From: Brunnivagina elsteri CCALA 953
Lineage (GTDB): Bacteria; Cyanobacteriota; Cyanobacteriia; Cyanobacteriales; Nostocaceae
DNA: 44,193 nt
Reading direction: 5' to 3'
NCBI RefSeq assembly: GCF_002289455.1
Contig: NZ_NTFS01000004.1
Coordinates: 1-44,193 of the forward strand
Each line of letters opens with the position of its first letter. Positions within the stretch are counted from its first letter, which is position 1. The notes under the pieces were generated by a model. The model saw only the letters and a list, made by a program, of their open reading frames with translations. It was not told the origin of the DNA and made no database searches. Below, one piece after another: positions 2,488-41,918 of this stretch. The translations under genes were made by a program, and so were the position numbers.

Positions 2488-3498
2488 ATGTCAGACGATT
2501 CTCAACGTAATTCCGCTACTAATGCTGCTGCTAGCACCCAAGTTCGTCACGCCCTGAGGGACGACATTAAGCAGTACACTCCAGAAAAGTTGGGGCATTT
2601 GAAGAGAGGTGGAATACGTAGTGGTCTGGGACGAGGTGACGCTCAAACTCAACAGATGATTGACAAAATACCGCCATCTCAACGTGCAGGCGTTGACGGT
2701 CAATCCGCTGCTTCCAAAGTCAAAGAGTATCTTGCAGACAAGGATGCCAGTCATGTAACACCTCACAGCAAAGGTGGCTCAAGCCATCCAGATAATATTA
2801 AATGGGAAAACAAAGCTGCGAATCGTGCTCGTGGCGATCAGCAAATGACTCGGCAAGAGCAAAAGCGGATTGATGTCAAAGTAAAAATTGACAATTTAAC
2901 TGGCGCGTTAAAGTCCGGTCTACAAGCTGCGCCCAAAGGAGCAGTAATCGGTGCGATTACAACTGCTCCTTTTTCCATGCTCAGGAATGCGCTGCGAGTT
3001 ATGCGAGGAGAAATATCGCCTCAGGATGCAGCTATGGAAACAGTCAAAGAAACTGCTATTGGAGGAGGGGTTGGTGCTGCAACAGCTTTTACGGTCACAG
3101 CAGTTGCTACAGCTTGTCCTCCTGTTGCTCTAGCGTTAACAGCAGTTTCTCCTGTTCTGTTAGCTGTGGGTGGTGCAGGCATGGTTTATGAATTCTTCAA
3201 GATTCTTGATGACCATAAGAATCAAACGAAAGAATATTATAAATCACTAACTCAGCGCGATCTAAACTATCTCAAAGAGGTTGAAAATGAGCTTTTATAC
3301 GAACACACCAAAAATCTAGCGTTTTTGGATAATGCTCAAGCGCTAAACACTGAGATTTCAAATCGACCGATTGAAACTGGTGTTGAAGGAGCATTAAAAA
3401 GATATCTTGAGTCAGCCGCTATTGCCAAATCGTTAGGAGTTAGTCCAGTTGGTAGTAAGGCATTGCTTGGCTCTCAGGACTCTATTCCCTCTGCGTAA
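2488..3498 (+). CDS. HNH-like nuclease-domain protein with hydrophobic glycine-rich helices (unknown function)
   Basis: This is a 336-residue protein. Residues 68-125 contain a His/Asn-rich segment (H89 and H93 in SHVTPHSKGG, N103 in PDNIKWEN, N112 in ANRARG) that reads like an HNH/ββα-metal nuclease motif. Before it is a polar region; after it are two hydrophobic Gly/Ala-rich stretches at about 150-165 and 190-235 (GGGVGAATAF, then a Val/Leu/Ala-rich run), which could insert in a membrane. The C-terminus is helical and charged. No signal peptide is present. The next gene starts 21 bp downstream and also has a glycine-zipper-like hydrophobic segment, so the two are probably co-transcribed. 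A toxin, bacteriocin-like or defence nuclease role is possible but is inference, and I do not recognise a named family. Confidence 0.65.
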   Translation: MSDDSQRNSATNAAASTQVRHALRDDIKQYTPEKLGHLKRGGIRSGLGRGDAQTQQMIDKIPPSQRAGVDGQSAASKVKEYLADKDASHVTPHSKGGSSHPDNIKWENKAANRARGDQQMTRQEQKRIDVKVKIDNLTGALKSGLQAAPKGAVIGAITTAPFSMLRNALRVMRGEISPQDAAMETVKETAIGGGVGAATAFTVTAVATACPPVALALTAVSPVLLAVGGAGMVYEFFKILDDHKNQTKEYYKSLTQRDLNYLKEVENELLYEHTKNLAFLDNAQALNTEISNRPIETGVEGALKRYLESAAIAKSLGVSPVGSKALLGSQDSIPSA

Positions 3499-37305: not shown

Positions 37306-37334
37306 TTTTCTCTGCTGTTTCCAACCACTTTTTA
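37306..37334. repeat. Direct repeat copy flanking the toxin-antitoxin pair (left)
   Basis: These 29 bases match 37969-37997 at 28 positions. On the minus strand, the other copy encodes KKWLKTAEK at the end of the HEAT/amyloid-motif protein. Here the same reading would give KKWLETAEK. The toxin stop codon lies at the edge of this copy. Confidence 0.8.
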
Positions 37335-37625
37335 ATCAGAAAATAAAGCCTCTAAATCTCGATAACCGTTAACTACATGCACCACATCAATTCCATCTTG
37401 CCTGGGATAATAAAAGATAAGGTAGTCCTTAACAATAAAACCCCGTAAATTAGGTGCAAGTTGTTCATAGCTTTTACCCATATTCGGAAAATCAGCTACT
37501 AACTTGCATTTTTGACGAATCTCATCAAAAAGTTTGCTAGATGCTTTAGGATTAAGACGAGCAATCGATTCGCAAATATTATCTAAATCTTGGACTGCTT
37601 CATCTGAAAATGAATAATTACTCAT
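37332..37625 (-). CDS. ParE/RelE-family toxin
   Basis: The 97-residue protein has the ParE/RelE fold markers: FSDEAVQDLDNICESIARLN at the start, FPNMGKSYEQLAPNLRGFIV in the middle and YLIFYYPRQDGIDVVHVVNG near the end. ParE-type toxins poison gyrase and RelE-type toxins cut mRNA; the subtype is not decided by sequence, but the pairing with a ParD-like antitoxin favours ParE. Its start overlaps the antitoxin stop by one base (TAATG). Its stop codon is supplied by a repeat copied from the neighbouring HEAT gene. Confidence 0.9.
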   Translation of the reverse strand: MSNYSFSDEAVQDLDNICESIARLNPKASSKLFDEIRQKCKLVADFPNMGKSYEQLAPNLRGFIVKDYLIFYYPRQDGIDVVHVVNGYRDLEALFSD

Positions 37626-37879
37626 TATTCATTTTCCTGAGCAATCGAGCGAATTTTTGCTTGTAAACGTTCAAAAACGACTTCACCATCTGTTACAGAA
37701 CCTTGCTTGATTTGTTCTGTACCTAATACTATTTTTCTTTTTAATTCTTCTAACTGATTAGCTCGATTTTCTAACAATTTAACAGCTTCATTTATGACTT
37801 CATCAACAGTAGTAAATTGACCGTTAGCAATTTGCGATTGAATAAATTGTTCGTATTCGGGTTTTAAGTTGATGTTCAT
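37625..37879 (-). CDS. ParD/CopG-like antitoxin
   Basis: The 84-residue protein has a ribbon-helix-helix-type N-terminus (MNINLKPEYEQFIQSQIANG, then FTTVDEVINEAVKLLE) and a charged C-terminal part that would wrap the toxin. It binds DNA to repress its own operon and neutralises the toxin. It comes first in the two-gene operon, with a one-base overlap to the toxin gene. Confidence 0.9.
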   Translation of the reverse strand: MNINLKPEYEQFIQSQIANGQFTTVDEVINEAVKLLENRANQLEELKRKIVLGTEQIKQGSVTDGEVVFERLQAKIRSIAQENE

Positions 37880-37960
37880 CTTATTTACCTGTAGATTTAC
37901 AAGCTACTCTTGGTAAGAAATTTTCTGCTAATTGTGTTCTTTGATTTATTTTATCGTAAT

Positions 37961-38614
37961 TTATTTAATTTTCTCTGCTGTTTTCAACCACTTTTTACCC
38001 ATTTCGATGGGAATACCCAATGGTGGACAAAGTATTTTAATTAGTTCAATTCCTCCTTGTAATAATATTTGAGCAATTTGTGATTTTGTTCTAATTGATT
38101 GTTCAAATTGAATATTAAATAAGCGTTTATCTTCTGCACTTGTAATTGGGTATGTTTGAATAACTTCTTCAAGTTCCGCAATAAATAATTCTTGTGGAGG
38201 GTTGTTTTTAGGTAAAGTTTCTAGTATTTGTTCTAATTTATTAGTCAGTTCAATTACATTGCGTGTAGGTGCATAGTTGTTTTGAATTCCAACTTGATCA
38301 CCTTCTATTTTTACATCTCCTTGATTGAAGTTACTTATAGGAGCATTAAAATTGTTTTGATATTTAGGAGTTTCTGACATTAATTTTACCGATTCAGGAT
38401 TAACAATTAAGACTAAAGCATCAGCAGCTTGAAACCTAACATTGATATCTGTATCTTGCTGCAAAGCTTGGCAAAGTGCAGGAATTGCCAACTCACTACT
38501 AATTTTACCTAATGATTCAGCAGCTTTGGCGCGAATTTGTGGATTTTTATCTTCTAATAAAAGCTTGCATAAGGAATCCACTGCCATCAGTAGATATTCT
38601 TGACGAATTGTCAC
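37961..38614 (-). CDS. HEAT-repeat protein with RHIM-like motif and helical C-terminal domain
   Basis: This is a 217-residue protein. Residues 10-75 are HEAT/PBS-lyase-type repeats (VDSLCKLLLEDKNPQIRAKA). Residues 87-113 carry a segment starting NNFNAPI and ending GDQVGIQNN, similar to the C-terminus of the NACHT protein upstream. Residues about 115-217 form a helical domain ending in GGIELIKILCPPLGIPIEM and KKWLKTAEK, with an amphipathic or membrane-binding look. The start is a GTG overlapping the previous stop (GTGA), so translation is coupled. M10 is an alternative start. It may be the effector or partner of the NACHT protein (inference). Its 3' end is the source of the repeat that flanks the toxin-antitoxin pair. 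Confidence 0.75.
   Translation of the reverse strand: MTIRQEYLLMAVDSLCKLLLEDKNPQIRAKAAESLGKISSELAIPALCQALQQDTDINVRFQAADALVLIVNPESVKLMSETPKYQNNFNAPISNFNQGDVKIEGDQVGIQNNYAPTRNVIELTNKLEQILETLPKNNPPQELFIAELEEVIQTYPITSAEDKRLFNIQFEQSIRTKSQIAQILLQGGIELIKILCPPLGIPIEMGKKWLKTAEKIK
37969..37997. repeat. Direct repeat copy flanking the toxin-antitoxin pair (right, inside the HEAT gene)
   Basis: It is the partner of 37306-37334 and forms the coding 3' end of the HEAT/amyloid-motif gene. The two copies are in direct orientation and 663 bp apart. Confidence 0.8.
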
Positions 38615-39105
38615 AATTGCGCCCCAATTTTACCAATTGCTTCGACAATATTTGAGCGTACTGTGTCATTTTCATCATTCAATGCGTTTACAAGTTTGGG
38701 AATTGCGTCTTCTAAACCAATTTGTCCTAATGCATTTGCTGCTGTGGAACGTACTTCTGAACTTTCATCTTCTAAAGCTTGAAACAAGTAAGTTAGAACT
38801 TTTTCGCTACCAATTTTACCTAATGCATCGACAGTAAAAATGCGTATTTGCTGATTTTCATCCAGGAGCATTTTGACTAAATCTGGGATAGCTGCGGAAC
38901 TAGCAATTTCACCTAAAGCATAAATTACATTTAAACGAACGCGATCGCACTTATCTTCAAGTAGTTGTACAAGTGCAGGAACGGCAGTTTCACTACCAAT
39001 TTTTCCCAAGGATTCTGCTGCTTTTGCTCGTACTTCTGGTGTTGAATCTTGGAGAGTTTTACAGAGAACTTCGACTACAGTTTGTTTATCGATGCTTTTT
39101 ACCAC
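38611..39105 (-). CDS. HEAT-repeat protein (PBS-lyase type)
   Basis: The 164-residue protein consists almost entirely of about five HEAT repeats with the pattern ALxDxxxxVRxxAAxALGKIG. Examples are STPEVRAKAAESLGKIGSET and ESSEVRSTAANALGQIGLED. It has no other domain. It starts with a GTG preceded by AGGAG. It overlaps the next gene by four bases and lies 38 bp after the NACHT gene, so the three form an operon. Its N-terminal repeat is nearly the same as that of the following gene, suggesting duplication. A scaffold or adaptor role is likely. Confidence 0.8.
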   Translation of the reverse strand: MVKSIDKQTVVEVLCKTLQDSTPEVRAKAAESLGKIGSETAVPALVQLLEDKCDRVRLNVIYALGEIASSAAIPDLVKMLLDENQQIRIFTVDALGKIGSEKVLTYLFQALEDESSEVRSTAANALGQIGLEDAIPKLVNALNDENDTVRSNIVEAIGKIGAQL

Positions 39106-39143
39106 AGAATATTCTCCTGTTGAGTTTGAATTACTGCTATTTC

Positions 39144-41918
39144 TTATTGTATTGATTTACCATCTTGTAAGCCGATTTGATTTCCGTGTATGTCTACTTT
39201 TCCTGTGTTGACAATACCGACAGGTGCATAAAAGTTATTGGTCGTAGTTGATTGAGATTTATTCTCTGTTTCATCTTCCACTGGAGGAGAATCAAAAATT
39301 TCATGGTTGTAAAATTTGTAGTTCTCTTGAATTTTTAAAATTATATCCTTGGCTTCGTATACCCCAGACAATAAGAATTTCCACATTTGATATAAAATAT
39401 CATAAGTAGCAATTTTTACTAATGCTTCTGCAACTGTCCAACGAACTAATGAATGTTCATCTTGTAATGCAGTAATTAAGGGATTAACTGCGGCTTCATT
39501 ACCTATATTCCCCAACGCTTCTGCAACTCTCCAACGAACTTCTGAGTTTTCATCTTGTAATGCAGTAATTAAGGGATTGACTGCGGTTTCATTACCTATA
39601 TTCCCCAACGCTTCTGCAACTCTCCAACGAACTTCTGAGTTTTCATCTTGTAATGCAGTAATCAGAGAATTAATTGTAGGTGATGCTTCAGTACCAATTT
39701 GTGCTAATACTTCTGCAACTCTCCAACGGACTTCTGAATTTTCATCTTGTAATGCAGTCATTAATAAATGGACAGTTGTTTTGTCACAGATTTTTATTAA
39801 AAATTCTGTAGCACCTATACAAACACTGCTTGTTGGATGATTCAATAAAGGAATAAGATATTCTATCTTTACCTGATAGTCAACATTATTAGCTAATATT
39901 TTGTTGCTCTCAAGTTCAACCTCTAACTCTTCATCTTCATCTTCTACTACCTGCGGGGCAGAAGCTATTTTTTTAGAAAATTTATATAGAGGTGAATCAT
40001 TCAGAGCATTAACTGCGTCTTCATTACCAATATTATCTAATGCATTTGTGGCACTGAAACGGACTCCTGAATCTTCATCATTTAATGTAGCAATTAGTGG
40101 GTGAACTGCCGCTTCATTACCGATTTTTCCCAATCCTATTGCTGCTCTCTTACGAACGTTTGGATGTACACTTTTTAAGGCAGAGATTAGGGCATTTACT
40201 GCGGTTTCATTACCAATTTTGACTAATTCACGTATTGCTTGAAAACTGATGTAATACTCTTCATCATCTAAAAGAGTACTCAGGATATCGACTGCGGCTT
40301 CATTACCAATTTGAACTAATATATTTACAGCACGAATACGAACATCTGAGTTTTCAGATTGTAAACAATTATTTAAATAATTAACAGTAAACTCCGACTT
40401 CGTAATACCTAAAAATTCAACCTTGATTAATTCAGGAACCTCTATCCCCAAAACCAACCGCACCGTCTTCTCCTGAAACTTCTGTTTTACCTCCCCTGCT
40501 AACCTCGCACCTAACATTAAATCCACATCCAACGCTAACTTCACAATATGAACAGCTTGCGCTTCATCCTCCACTAAACCTAGCGCGATCGCAATACTTT
40601 CTGTCCATTTCAACAAATTCAAATAATCACGCTGTAATTTGCGATCGCTCAACTCAGGTAACAACCGCAGCAAGGATTCCGCAGCATAATATTCTTGCAG
40701 TAATTGATGACGAAACTGTATTTGTTCTCCACTTCCCACTTCAATCAAATGATGGTTGAGCAAATCATCCAAACAGCGCAATGCAAAATCATCTGCATAA
40801 GCTACTTTCTCTTGGAGAAACTTCTGAAACACCATTTTTACTTCCTGCTTCGGAATAGTAACGCGAAATTCCGTCGCTGGTTTTCCCTGCATCATCACAA
40901 AAGCCAAATGTTCTAAAAGCGGTTTCCACCAATTGCGATCGCTCTTTATCGGTACATCCTGTTTAACCCGATTTTCGTATCCCTGAGTAAACAAACGAAA
41001 CACCATCCCCAAATTTGCCGGAATACTATTCTGTTGTCGGAACAGTTCGCACAGCATCCACAATAATAAAGGTGTTTGCCCAAATTCCCGCACGCGATCG
41101 CGCAATTGTCGCAATAATTCCTCTCCCTGTTCTGGTAAATAAGCCAAAACAAACTGACGCATCTGTGATTCTGTCAGAGGTAGCATTTCCAGCTTTTTCT
41201 TAATTCCCAAATCACCCCCAATACCTAAGTCTCTGGTGGTAAAAATCATTGGTGTTTGGGAAAATTCCCCTCGACGAAATGCTGCTACTTGTCGTCGTGC
41301 TTCTTCTGAGGGTAATTCGTTTAATCCATCGACTAGCAGCAATAATTTACGCTGGGATAATAAGCTTTTAATTTCGTTTTCGGTTAATGGTAGTTCGTGT
41401 TGGTTAAAGAATGCTTCAATTAATTGAAAAACTGAATTTTGCCAATACCGTAATTCGATTAATACGGGAATTTGGGGTAATTCTCCAGATTGGGAGATGG
41501 GATGTATCTCTCCAGGGGTATAGAAGACGCGATGTATCGCGTCTCTACATTTTTCTAATAATAATCGGGTTAATGCTGTCGATTTTCCTGAACCTGGTTT
41601 GCCGATTAATAAAACATGGTTTGATTCTGCTAAATATTTACAAATACCTTCCAACACGGGTACACGATCGCATACCTTCTTCTTATCCTCAATTCCCAAA
41701 TTTTGCGATCGCTTGGGTACAACTTTTTTCACCATCAACCCAAAATCAAAAGGTGAATCAAAAGGTGAATCAAAGCTTGAAAAACCAGCTTTATCTTGGG
41801 ATTGCCGATCGAAGGTATCCGTCAACGTGTAAAAATTCCACCAGCGATCGCACTTCTTGCTGATGGATGCAAAATATTTATGAAATTCAGGTTCGACTGG
41901 TTCGGAAGTTGCTGCCAT
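39144..41918 (-). CDS. NACHT-domain STAND ATPase with C-terminal HEAT repeats and RHIM-like tail
   Basis: This is a 924-residue protein. The N-terminal ~60 residues include CDRWWNFYTLTD, a segment I associate with cyanobacterial NACHT proteins. The NACHT domain has Walker A GKPGSGKST at 106-114 and Walker B LLLLVDGLNEL at 192-202, with a conserved RHQLLQEYYAA helix later. HEAT repeats fill about 520-850. Four near-identical copies of ALQDENSEVRWRVAEALG lie at about 720-830, with 93-bp DNA periods. The last ~31 residues hold NNFYAPV and GNQIGLQ. A palindromic repeat encodes about residues 123-136. Proteins of this type act as oligomerising sensors in bacterial conflict or defence; that role is inferred here. 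Confidence 0.85.
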   Translation of the reverse strand: MAATSEPVEPEFHKYFASISKKCDRWWNFYTLTDTFDRQSQDKAGFSSFDSPFDSPFDFGLMVKKVVPKRSQNLGIEDKKKVCDRVPVLEGICKYLAESNHVLLIGKPGSGKSTALTRLLLEKCRDAIHRVFYTPGEIHPISQSGELPQIPVLIELRYWQNSVFQLIEAFFNQHELPLTENEIKSLLSQRKLLLLVDGLNELPSEEARRQVAAFRRGEFSQTPMIFTTRDLGIGGDLGIKKKLEMLPLTESQMRQFVLAYLPEQGEELLRQLRDRVREFGQTPLLLWMLCELFRQQNSIPANLGMVFRLFTQGYENRVKQDVPIKSDRNWWKPLLEHLAFVMMQGKPATEFRVTIPKQEVKMVFQKFLQEKVAYADDFALRCLDDLLNHHLIEVGSGEQIQFRHQLLQEYYAAESLLRLLPELSDRKLQRDYLNLLKWTESIAIALGLVEDEAQAVHIVKLALDVDLMLGARLAGEVKQKFQEKTVRLVLGIEVPELIKVEFLGITKSEFTVNYLNNCLQSENSDVRIRAVNILVQIGNEAAVDILSTLLDDEEYYISFQAIRELVKIGNETAVNALISALKSVHPNVRKRAAIGLGKIGNEAAVHPLIATLNDEDSGVRFSATNALDNIGNEDAVNALNDSPLYKFSKKIASAPQVVEDEDEELEVELESNKILANNVDYQVKIEYLIPLLNHPTSSVCIGATEFLIKICDKTTVHLLMTALQDENSEVRWRVAEVLAQIGTEASPTINSLITALQDENSEVRWRVAEALGNIGNETAVNPLITALQDENSEVRWRVAEALGNIGNEAAVNPLITALQDEHSLVRWTVAEALVKIATYDILYQMWKFLLSGVYEAKDIILKIQENYKFYNHEIFDSPPVEDETENKSQSTTTNNFYAPVGIVNTGKVDIHGNQIGLQDGKSIQ
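39424..39800. repeat. Near-identical tandem HEAT-coding repeats
   Basis: The DNA motif starting GCTTCTGCAACTCTCCAACG recurs at 39424, 39517 and 39610 with a 93-bp period, and again at about 39709 with a 99-bp step. The copies are almost identical at DNA level, which implies recent duplication or gene conversion inside the NACHT gene. Confidence 0.85.
41525..41549. repeat. AGACG-type mobile hairpin, copy 4, inside the NACHT gene
   Basis: AGACGCGAT-GT-ATCGCGTCT followed by CTACA is a 9-bp stem with a 2-base loop. It lies in the coding region of the NACHT protein and is read in frame (about residues 123-136, CRDAIHRVF). Confidence 0.75.
41747..41782. repeat. Short tandem repeat in the NACHT N-terminal region
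   Basis: The 12-base unit TCAAAAGGTGAA is present in tandem with a third diverged copy. It encodes repeated SPFD residues in front of the ATPase domain. Confidence 0.6.

Follow-up and report, generated by a model that had tools for sequence, protein, structure and literature searches.

How a NACHT-HEAT receptor-like protein (NLR) might be connected to a small helical protein encoded in the same gene block is the question raised by three minus-strand genes in a 44,193-nucleotide stretch of Brunnivagina elsteri CCALA 953 (contig NZ_NTFS01000004.1, positions 1 to 44,193; this whole stretch is called the window). We found that the C-terminal end of the NLR and a segment of the small protein, its partner, carry the same short motif, and that the two segments covary across 16 nonredundant cyanobacterial loci (our handles for loci begin with L). 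We consider it very likely that receptor and partner pair like with like, and we give a probability of about 0.55 to the fuller reading, that the genes encode a two-component unit in which an activated NACHT-HEAT receptor is linked to the small helical-domain partner by like-with-like assembly. The elements of the locus are the following (aa, amino acids; ORF, open reading frame).

39144..41918, minus strand: NACHT-HEAT receptor-like protein (NLR), 924 aa; ORF with NACHT at residues 102-263, then HEAT repeats
41130..41615, minus strand: NACHT NTPase domain of the NLR, residues 102-263, Walker A GKPGSGKST; PF05729, E 7.7e-07
39369..40391, minus strand: HEAT repeats of the NLR, residues 510-850, span approximate by eye; HEAT_2, E 1.2e-66
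39279..39332, minus strand: NLR linker IQENYKFYNHEIFDSPPV, residues 863-880; by eye in NLR tails
39165..39239, minus strand: NLR C-terminal motif NNFYAPVGIVNTGKVDIHGNQIGLQ, residues 894-918; alignment, covariation, and genome search
38611..39105, minus strand: pure HEAT-repeat protein, accessory, 164 aa, GTG start; ORF with HEAT_2 match
37961..38614, minus strand: partner, HEAT - motif - helical domain, 217 aa, GTG start; ORF, HEAT_2, and structure model
38282..38356, minus strand: partner motif NNFNAPISNFNQGDVKIEGDQVGIQ, residues 87-111; alignment and covariation, disordered in the model
37967..38263, minus strand: partner C-terminal five-helix domain, conserved GGIELIKILCPPLGIPIEMGKKWL; structure model, without Pfam match

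When residues 894-918 of the NLR were aligned with residues 87-111 of the partner, 13 of 25 positions were identical without gaps, and the local alignment score of 72 was reached by none of 20,000 shuffles (mean, 23.4; standard deviation, 4.9; maximum, 55). A search of the 7.0-Mb genome in six frames with the 37-aa NLR tail returned, besides the tail itself, a sole match at E<=10, which was the partner motif (E=0.0022). An initial annotation of this DNA had described a shared motif with an NNF.AP start and a G.Q[IV]G[LI]Q end at residues 894-920 and 87-113, C-terminal on the receptor, and the alignment, shuffles, and genome search uphold both the motif and its position, with slightly shorter bounds (894-918 of 924 residues in the NLR). 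The linker ahead of the motif, IQENYKFYNHEIFDSPPV, resembles by eye the pre-motif linker (IQ.RCKFYNYEIFHSP-like) in other NLR tails that carry different motif types.

The sequence also agrees with the operon layout in that annotation, three same-strand genes with a 38-bp gap followed by a 4-bp GTGA overlap, and the Pfam matches and structure model agree with its assignment of the products as NACHT-HEAT, HEAT, and HEAT-helical proteins (HEAT_2 E values of 1.2e-66 for the NLR, 9.5e-41 for the pure HEAT protein, and 2.5e-13 for the partner). The NACHT match scores 29.5 bits against a Pfam cutoff of 26.7 (E 7.7e-07), and its NACHT domain and Walker A place the window NLR among NACHT-clade STAND NTPases. 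The label "inflammasome-like" suits the architecture of the operon and describes that architecture only, not any output. The pure HEAT protein is dispensable, because six related loci (L025, L031, L098, L114, L151, and L160) have no such gene between NLR and partner; the partners at these loci are without the HEAT part.

Related loci were collected in several ways. Eight loci came from one scan of the genome collection; a helical-domain profile had matches in 200 of 388 genomes of the order, and a second such profile, at E<=1e-8, had matches in 20 of 61, 82 of 217, and 28 of 386 genomes, and of the 28 last named, which came from a phylum-wide draw, 2 lay outside the order. From these matches, 80 regions were fetched, and as they were chosen by the author and are mostly short ORFs with strong E values, proportions among the loci are not a survey. 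A census of the window, the 8 loci, and the 80 regions found 84 ORFs with the helical domain, with a P-loop ORF of at least 400 aa upstream in 27 and none in 54, while 3 were long or fused. For the covariation analysis, 12 of the 27 were dropped, namely, near-duplicates (L092, L152, L153, L154, L155, and L157), loci with a broken NLR (L024 and L163), second copies without the motif (L031b and L153b), L130, whose upstream ORF is weakly akin to the window NLR (E 2.7e-10) and has no like tail, and L144, which is unrelated. L106, a tail ORF without a P-loop, was added by hand. Loci in which NLR or partner is broken or cut by a contig end (L026/L110, L028/L091, L093, L096/L027, L097, L108, and L115) stood outside the test.

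In the resulting 16 loci, the last 40 residues of each NLR were scored against the stretch ahead of the helical domain of each partner. The cognate scores summed to 1142, against a permuted mean of 531 (standard deviation, 70), and none of 100,000 permutations reached the observed sum; the median score was 74 for a locus's own pair and 25 for other pairs. The NLR's own partner was the best in its row in 9 of 16 cases and in its column in 10 of 16. For a control, we scored the NLR stretch ahead of the tail (residues -140 to -60), which gave 364 against 361.7 expected, a value reached by 44,955 of 100,000 permutations. The tested NLRs are homologous to that of the window (phmmer E<=1e-85), apart from the L106 ORF, which consists of HEAT repeats and tail only and was not compared. 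Covariation of the two segments was a point on which the initial annotation had staked its proposal, and the segments do covary.

The motifs fall into about eight types, which were named by eye.

Type A, ends like G..[IV]G.Q: window, L025, L098, L107, L111
Type B, [YF]D.RGA.[IV].N.A..V[QE]G.Q: L094, L031
Type C, NVQIIE.GDG.I: L029
Type C1, VQIV.TT.GGDAVIHK: L124
Type C2, VQI[IV]E.N.G.[VI][IY]GK: L151, L160
Type D, NSA.NLGGT..G.Q..TQN: L106
Type E, NF...V....G.VE: L095, L166
Type F, KVQ[IV]FE.V...I.HN: L114

Types C, C1, C2, and F are distantly alike by eye. In 15 of the 16 loci, the partner has the same type as its NLR, the exception being L109. The pairing code operates at the level of type only, since a cognate pair does not outscore pairings with other members of its type.

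The initial annotation had also likened the core of the motif to that of RHIM, which is Q-x-G-x-x-N or Q-[IV]-G-x-x-N. As worded, this likeness did not hold, as Q-[IVLC]-G-x-x-N is found in the window partner and not in the window NLR tail (NQIGLQD). Among the 16 loci, this core is on both sides in one (L111) and on neither side in 10, and we rejected membership in the RHIM family for these reasons.

When the motif type changes, it changes on NLR and partner alike, and this holds even among related Microcystis operons. The NACHT domains of L094 and L029, both from Microcystis, are 82% alike and their helical domains 95%, yet their motifs are of types B and C; the corresponding values are 69% and 81% for L025 and L151 (types A and C2) and 77% and 53% for L031 and L160 (types B and C2). 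On a NACHT tree with 14 labeled rows, there were 8 type changes (minimum, 6) against a shuffled mean of 8.6, with 67 of 200 shuffles as low. Thus, motif type is not clustered by descent, and because NLR and partner share one type in those 14 loci, each type change is seen on both proteins.

The motif could be a functionless relic of an ancestral NACHT-HEAT-motif-helical chain that was duplicated or split, with copying between the neighboring genes keeping the motifs alike. Fused chains do exist, these loci contain HEAT repeats and toxin-antitoxin genes and so may often have recombined, and, for identical residues in 15 cognate pairs, 129 of 232 use the same codon where codon usage predicts 100.5, an excess that is strong in L098 and L106. 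However, the count lies within 3 of expectation in 12 of the 15 pairs, so amino acids have been kept while codons drifted, and recent copying explains part of the likeness at most. In addition, the motif can change while the helical domain and NACHT stay alike, and the partner is broken at the mismatched loci L027/L096 and L093. We regard a relic as improbable.

Those mismatched loci, and L109, led us to reject the reading that all pairs agree. L027 and L096 represent a single Microcystis record, in which a type-C NLR of 1157 aa and two ORFs resembling RelBE by eye precede a leftover type-B NLR tail, a HEAT gene, and a type-B partner with an in-frame stop. The same order is found in L093, where the stop in the partner is elsewhere and the type-C NLR is also cut (466-aa ORF). 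One recombination probably produced these states, for which the evidence is suggestive only.

The motif and helical domain are also found together on other chains. They are fused to a NACHT-HEAT chain in L109, where the C-terminal end of the NLR is by eye a helical-type domain and not the motif, to HEAT chains in L041, L043, and L053 (of which only the last 577 to 615 aa were seen), and to pentapeptide proteins in L048 and L150, and L101 encodes a TIR-motif-helical protein (TIR_2, 8.1e-28). Because they occur on such varied chains (NACHT-HEAT, HEAT, TIR, and pentapeptide), the tag and helical domain behave as a cassette, and this cassette is tied to a known effector domain by the L101 protein and by the L029 NLR, which has a TIR_2 domain (4.1e-14) ahead of its motif. 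The L151 NLR has an N-terminal EAD8 (9.7e-21). Adjacent small genes without NACHT also carry like motifs in L118 (6455-7307; IGNICCGGVNGDPGTIQ and VGNVIAGDVHGNPTAIQ; the pair has no Pfam match) and L149 (SVNIGGHFKGNMNLGDGN and SVNIGGNSEGVINLGDGS), so pairing of this kind may not be confined to NLRs.

The fusions bear on whether the partner might instead be a brake or chaperone that caps the NLR tail, with the real effector elsewhere, for example, in a TIR or other motif-bearing protein. Fusion of the helical domain to TIR and pentapeptide proteins, together with the L029 NLR having its own TIR, means that toxicity need not reside in this domain. In contrast, among the Pfam families listed for 10 NLRs (the best 25 for three of them), no further effector or adaptor domain turned up in 8, including that of the window, and the fused forms put the helical domain on the receptor itself. 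The broken partner beside a kept NLR in L027/L096 fits loss of a useless part and loss of a brake equally well. A capping role for the partner seems to us quite unlikely.

We also modeled the partner. The model has HEAT helices at residues 5-52, a disordered stretch at 72-116 (predicted local distance difference test [pLDDT] under 50), and then the five-helix C-terminal domain, which when modeled alone gave a pLDDT of 86.4 and a predicted template modeling score of 0.75. At E<=1, Pfam gave no match to the helical domain, and the partner matched none of the Pfam EAD models, although a distant kinship may exist. For the domain alone, neither Foldseek (best E, 0.49) nor VIA (best Z, 5.5) gave a confident PDB match, and nothing stands out; there were no HeLo- or MLKL-like rows in their output, an absence that does not exclude such a fold. 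As a membrane-helix check, we computed hydropathy for 15 partners and found that the best 19-residue mean ranged from 1.1 to 2.0; these stretches contained a charged residue in 15 of 15 partners and proline in 13 of 15. Met79 of the window partner is a candidate internal start, as MSE is invariant in six partners and begins the short ones, with no clear ribosome site by eye. Second or other partner copies in L031 (6356-7153), L153, L159, and L165 have a TPDTAKADEVATQKTE-type repeat in place of the motif.

In the two-component unit that we favor, the HEAT repeats of the NLR would sense and NACHT would switch and, by analogy with its family, oligomerize, which would gather the C-terminal motifs of the NLRs. 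The gathered motifs would bind the like motif of the partner and nucleate its assembly, most likely as a short cross-beta (amyloid-type) stack, and the five-helix domain, thereby concentrated, would pass the signal on. The output would probably be cell damage or recruitment in an anti-invader response, as suggested by kinship with NLR systems only, and the helical domain could be executor or adaptor. The gene order, domains, common motif, joint type switching, and fusions that support this unit were seen directly; what we infer is that like motifs bind physically, that they do so in cross-beta form, and what the output would be. For the chemistry of pairing, cross-beta stacking seems most likely, since receptor and partner have the same short, strand-turn-strand-like sequence, and this sequence is disordered in the partner model, as are published amyloid motifs.

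The covariation (0 of 100,000 permutations) would also be expected if the pairing is real and consists of ordinary docking, by beta augmentation or a small hetero-oligomer interface, rather than amyloid templating. Consistent with docking, the motif types have little in common by eye beyond shortness, hydrophobic stretches, and G/N/D turns, and the RHIM core is on neither side in most loci (10 of 16). Likeness to published BASS3 peptides is also sparse. At a shuffle fraction of <0.01, which is not corrected for many tests, 5 of 36 segments (the L031 partner and tail, L041, L043, and the window partner) are like the Methanothrix BASS3-like peptide and 1 of 36 is like the Frankia BASS3 peptide, while two other peptides of the same published table had 0 of 36 each. 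These sequence matches do no more than hint at kinship to BASS3. However, the partner motif lies in predicted disorder beside a folded domain, as amyloid signaling motifs do, and two different docking surfaces would not require the same sequence on both sides. In addition, the BASS3-like archaeal peptide has a likeness to type B and the fused type, and in PMC8086366 it is reported to aggregate, with Fourier transform infrared and Congo red results of the amyloid type. Docking in place of templating is, in our view, possible but unlikely.

Several observations weigh against the two-component unit. Most helical-domain ORFs (54 of 84) have no P-loop ORF upstream, motif types were assigned by eye, and cognate pairs have no scoring advantage within a type, the window pair ranking 3 of 16 in its row. 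L109 is discordant with an intact partner, in that the NLR's own motif differs and the downstream partner is type A, and L108 looks like L109, with its NLR body cut by the contig end. No fold match reveals the activity of the helical domain, which may be an adaptor and not an executor since it is also on pentapeptide and TIR proteins. The NLR-side change in L029 is not of the motif alone, as the type-C tail arrived together with a TIR domain, and the two genes may have undergone some copying from one to the other, given that same codons are in excess (129 against 100.5), most evidently in L098 (15 of 18), L106 (17 of 21), and L166 (10 of 15). Finally, the operon is decayed in a sister genome (L024/L163).

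We compared the locus with known systems. As summarized in PMC7889193, PMC8086366, and PMC12261475, bacterial BASS1-10 motifs lie at the NLR N terminus and at the C terminus of Bell-domain effectors (Dyrka et al. 2020). Like the BASS signalosomes outlined there, which also occur in filamentous cyanobacteria, the locus has neighboring genes that encode an NLR-type NTPase and a small helical protein with a common short motif, and there are several motif families; the two genes of the window are separated by one HEAT gene. In contrast to the published layout, the motif here is at the NLR C terminus and N-terminal to the partner helical domain, so both positions are reversed, the sensor repeats are HEAT, and the helical domain need not be a Bell domain. 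The comparison of motif types with BASS covered two published BASS3-type peptides.

Fungal NWD2/HET-S and PNT1/HELLP and mammalian RHIM systems link receptor and executor via a common short templating motif, as described in PMC7889193. The short motif common to receptor and partner is alike here, templating itself being a feature of the fungal and RHIM systems, whereas the fungal motif is N-terminal on the NLR and C-terminal on a HeLo-type executor. With bNACHT and Avs anti-phage STAND proteins, the window NLR shares a STAND NTPase with C-terminal repeats; it differs in that no N-terminal effector domain was recognized, only NTPase and repeat domains being found among the best 25 of 35 Pfam families. 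PADLOC and NCBIfam matches to this NLR came from the HEAT repeats or were weak (e.g., Avs2, 5.1e-04), and the EruA match (0.0057) was far below its cutoff.

EAD1-10 and bacterial TRADD-N have been proposed as modular adaptors that pair receptor and effector homotypically, including in cyanobacteria (Kaur et al. 2020, 2021; PMC7159879 and PMC8195603). A proposed homotypic pairing of receptor and effector is common to both, and one NLR of our set (L151) has the N-terminal EAD8; however, the window partner matches no Pfam EAD at E<=1, and pairing here would rely on a short disordered motif. We set aside TRADD-N as an identity for the partner domain, which is modeled as all-helical, while the TRADD-N fold is given as RRM-like in PMC8195603. 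The best reading is that the system is a new variant of NLR amyloid-type signaling, filed neither as BASS nor as RHIM, because the published motif positions are both reversed here and no such layout was found described in the literature listings examined or in the passages considered from PMC7889193, PMC8086366, PMC9815663, PMC10907252, PMC12261475, PMC7159879, and PMC8195603; the original BASS paper may contain related cases.

The closest named relative found at the locus is Calothrix sp. CSU_2_0 (L024), at 91%. In L024 (2832-6294; also L163), the NLR is split into two ORFs and the partner frame is broken, yet both motifs are still alike. In the window, a ParD/ParE pair (37625-37879 and 37332-37625; region 37306-37997) lies 3' of the partner on the same strand. 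On either side of this pair stands a 29-bp direct repeat (28 of 29) of the 3' end of the partner, which would fit insertion of the pair at this site or its replacement of part of a second copy of the partner. Toxin-antitoxin-type genes, labeled by eye, recur inside or beside the operon in L031 (5178-5833, a ParDE close to the window's pair), in L027 and L093 (RelBE-like ORFs between NLR and HEAT gene), and in L166 (a RelE-like ORF between NLR and partner). Elsewhere in the window (2488-3498), a 336-aa ORF bears HVTPHSKGGSSHPDNIKWENKAANRARG, a stretch that we take to be HNH-like, and it may form a nuclease pair with the 192-aa ORF that follows it.

More tentatively, the about eight motif types may be interchangeable, mutually insulated like-with-like amyloid-type tags that make up a cyanobacterial wiring code, in which the tag alone decides who talks to whom; we hold this to be possible but doubtful. 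If true, a swap of ~25 residues would plug HEAT, HEAT-TIR, and EAD8-HEAT receptors, as well as TIR and pentapeptide proteins, into the same helical module. The layout mirrors those of fungal and published bacterial systems. Bacterial NLR amyloid-type signaling has been proposed from N-terminal motifs beside Bell domains. The natural tag swaps on both partners in related Microcystis operons provide pairing evidence as well as a ready set of matched and mismatched pairs. If the finding is confirmed, a wider search would be needed, since scans confined to NLR N termini miss such systems.

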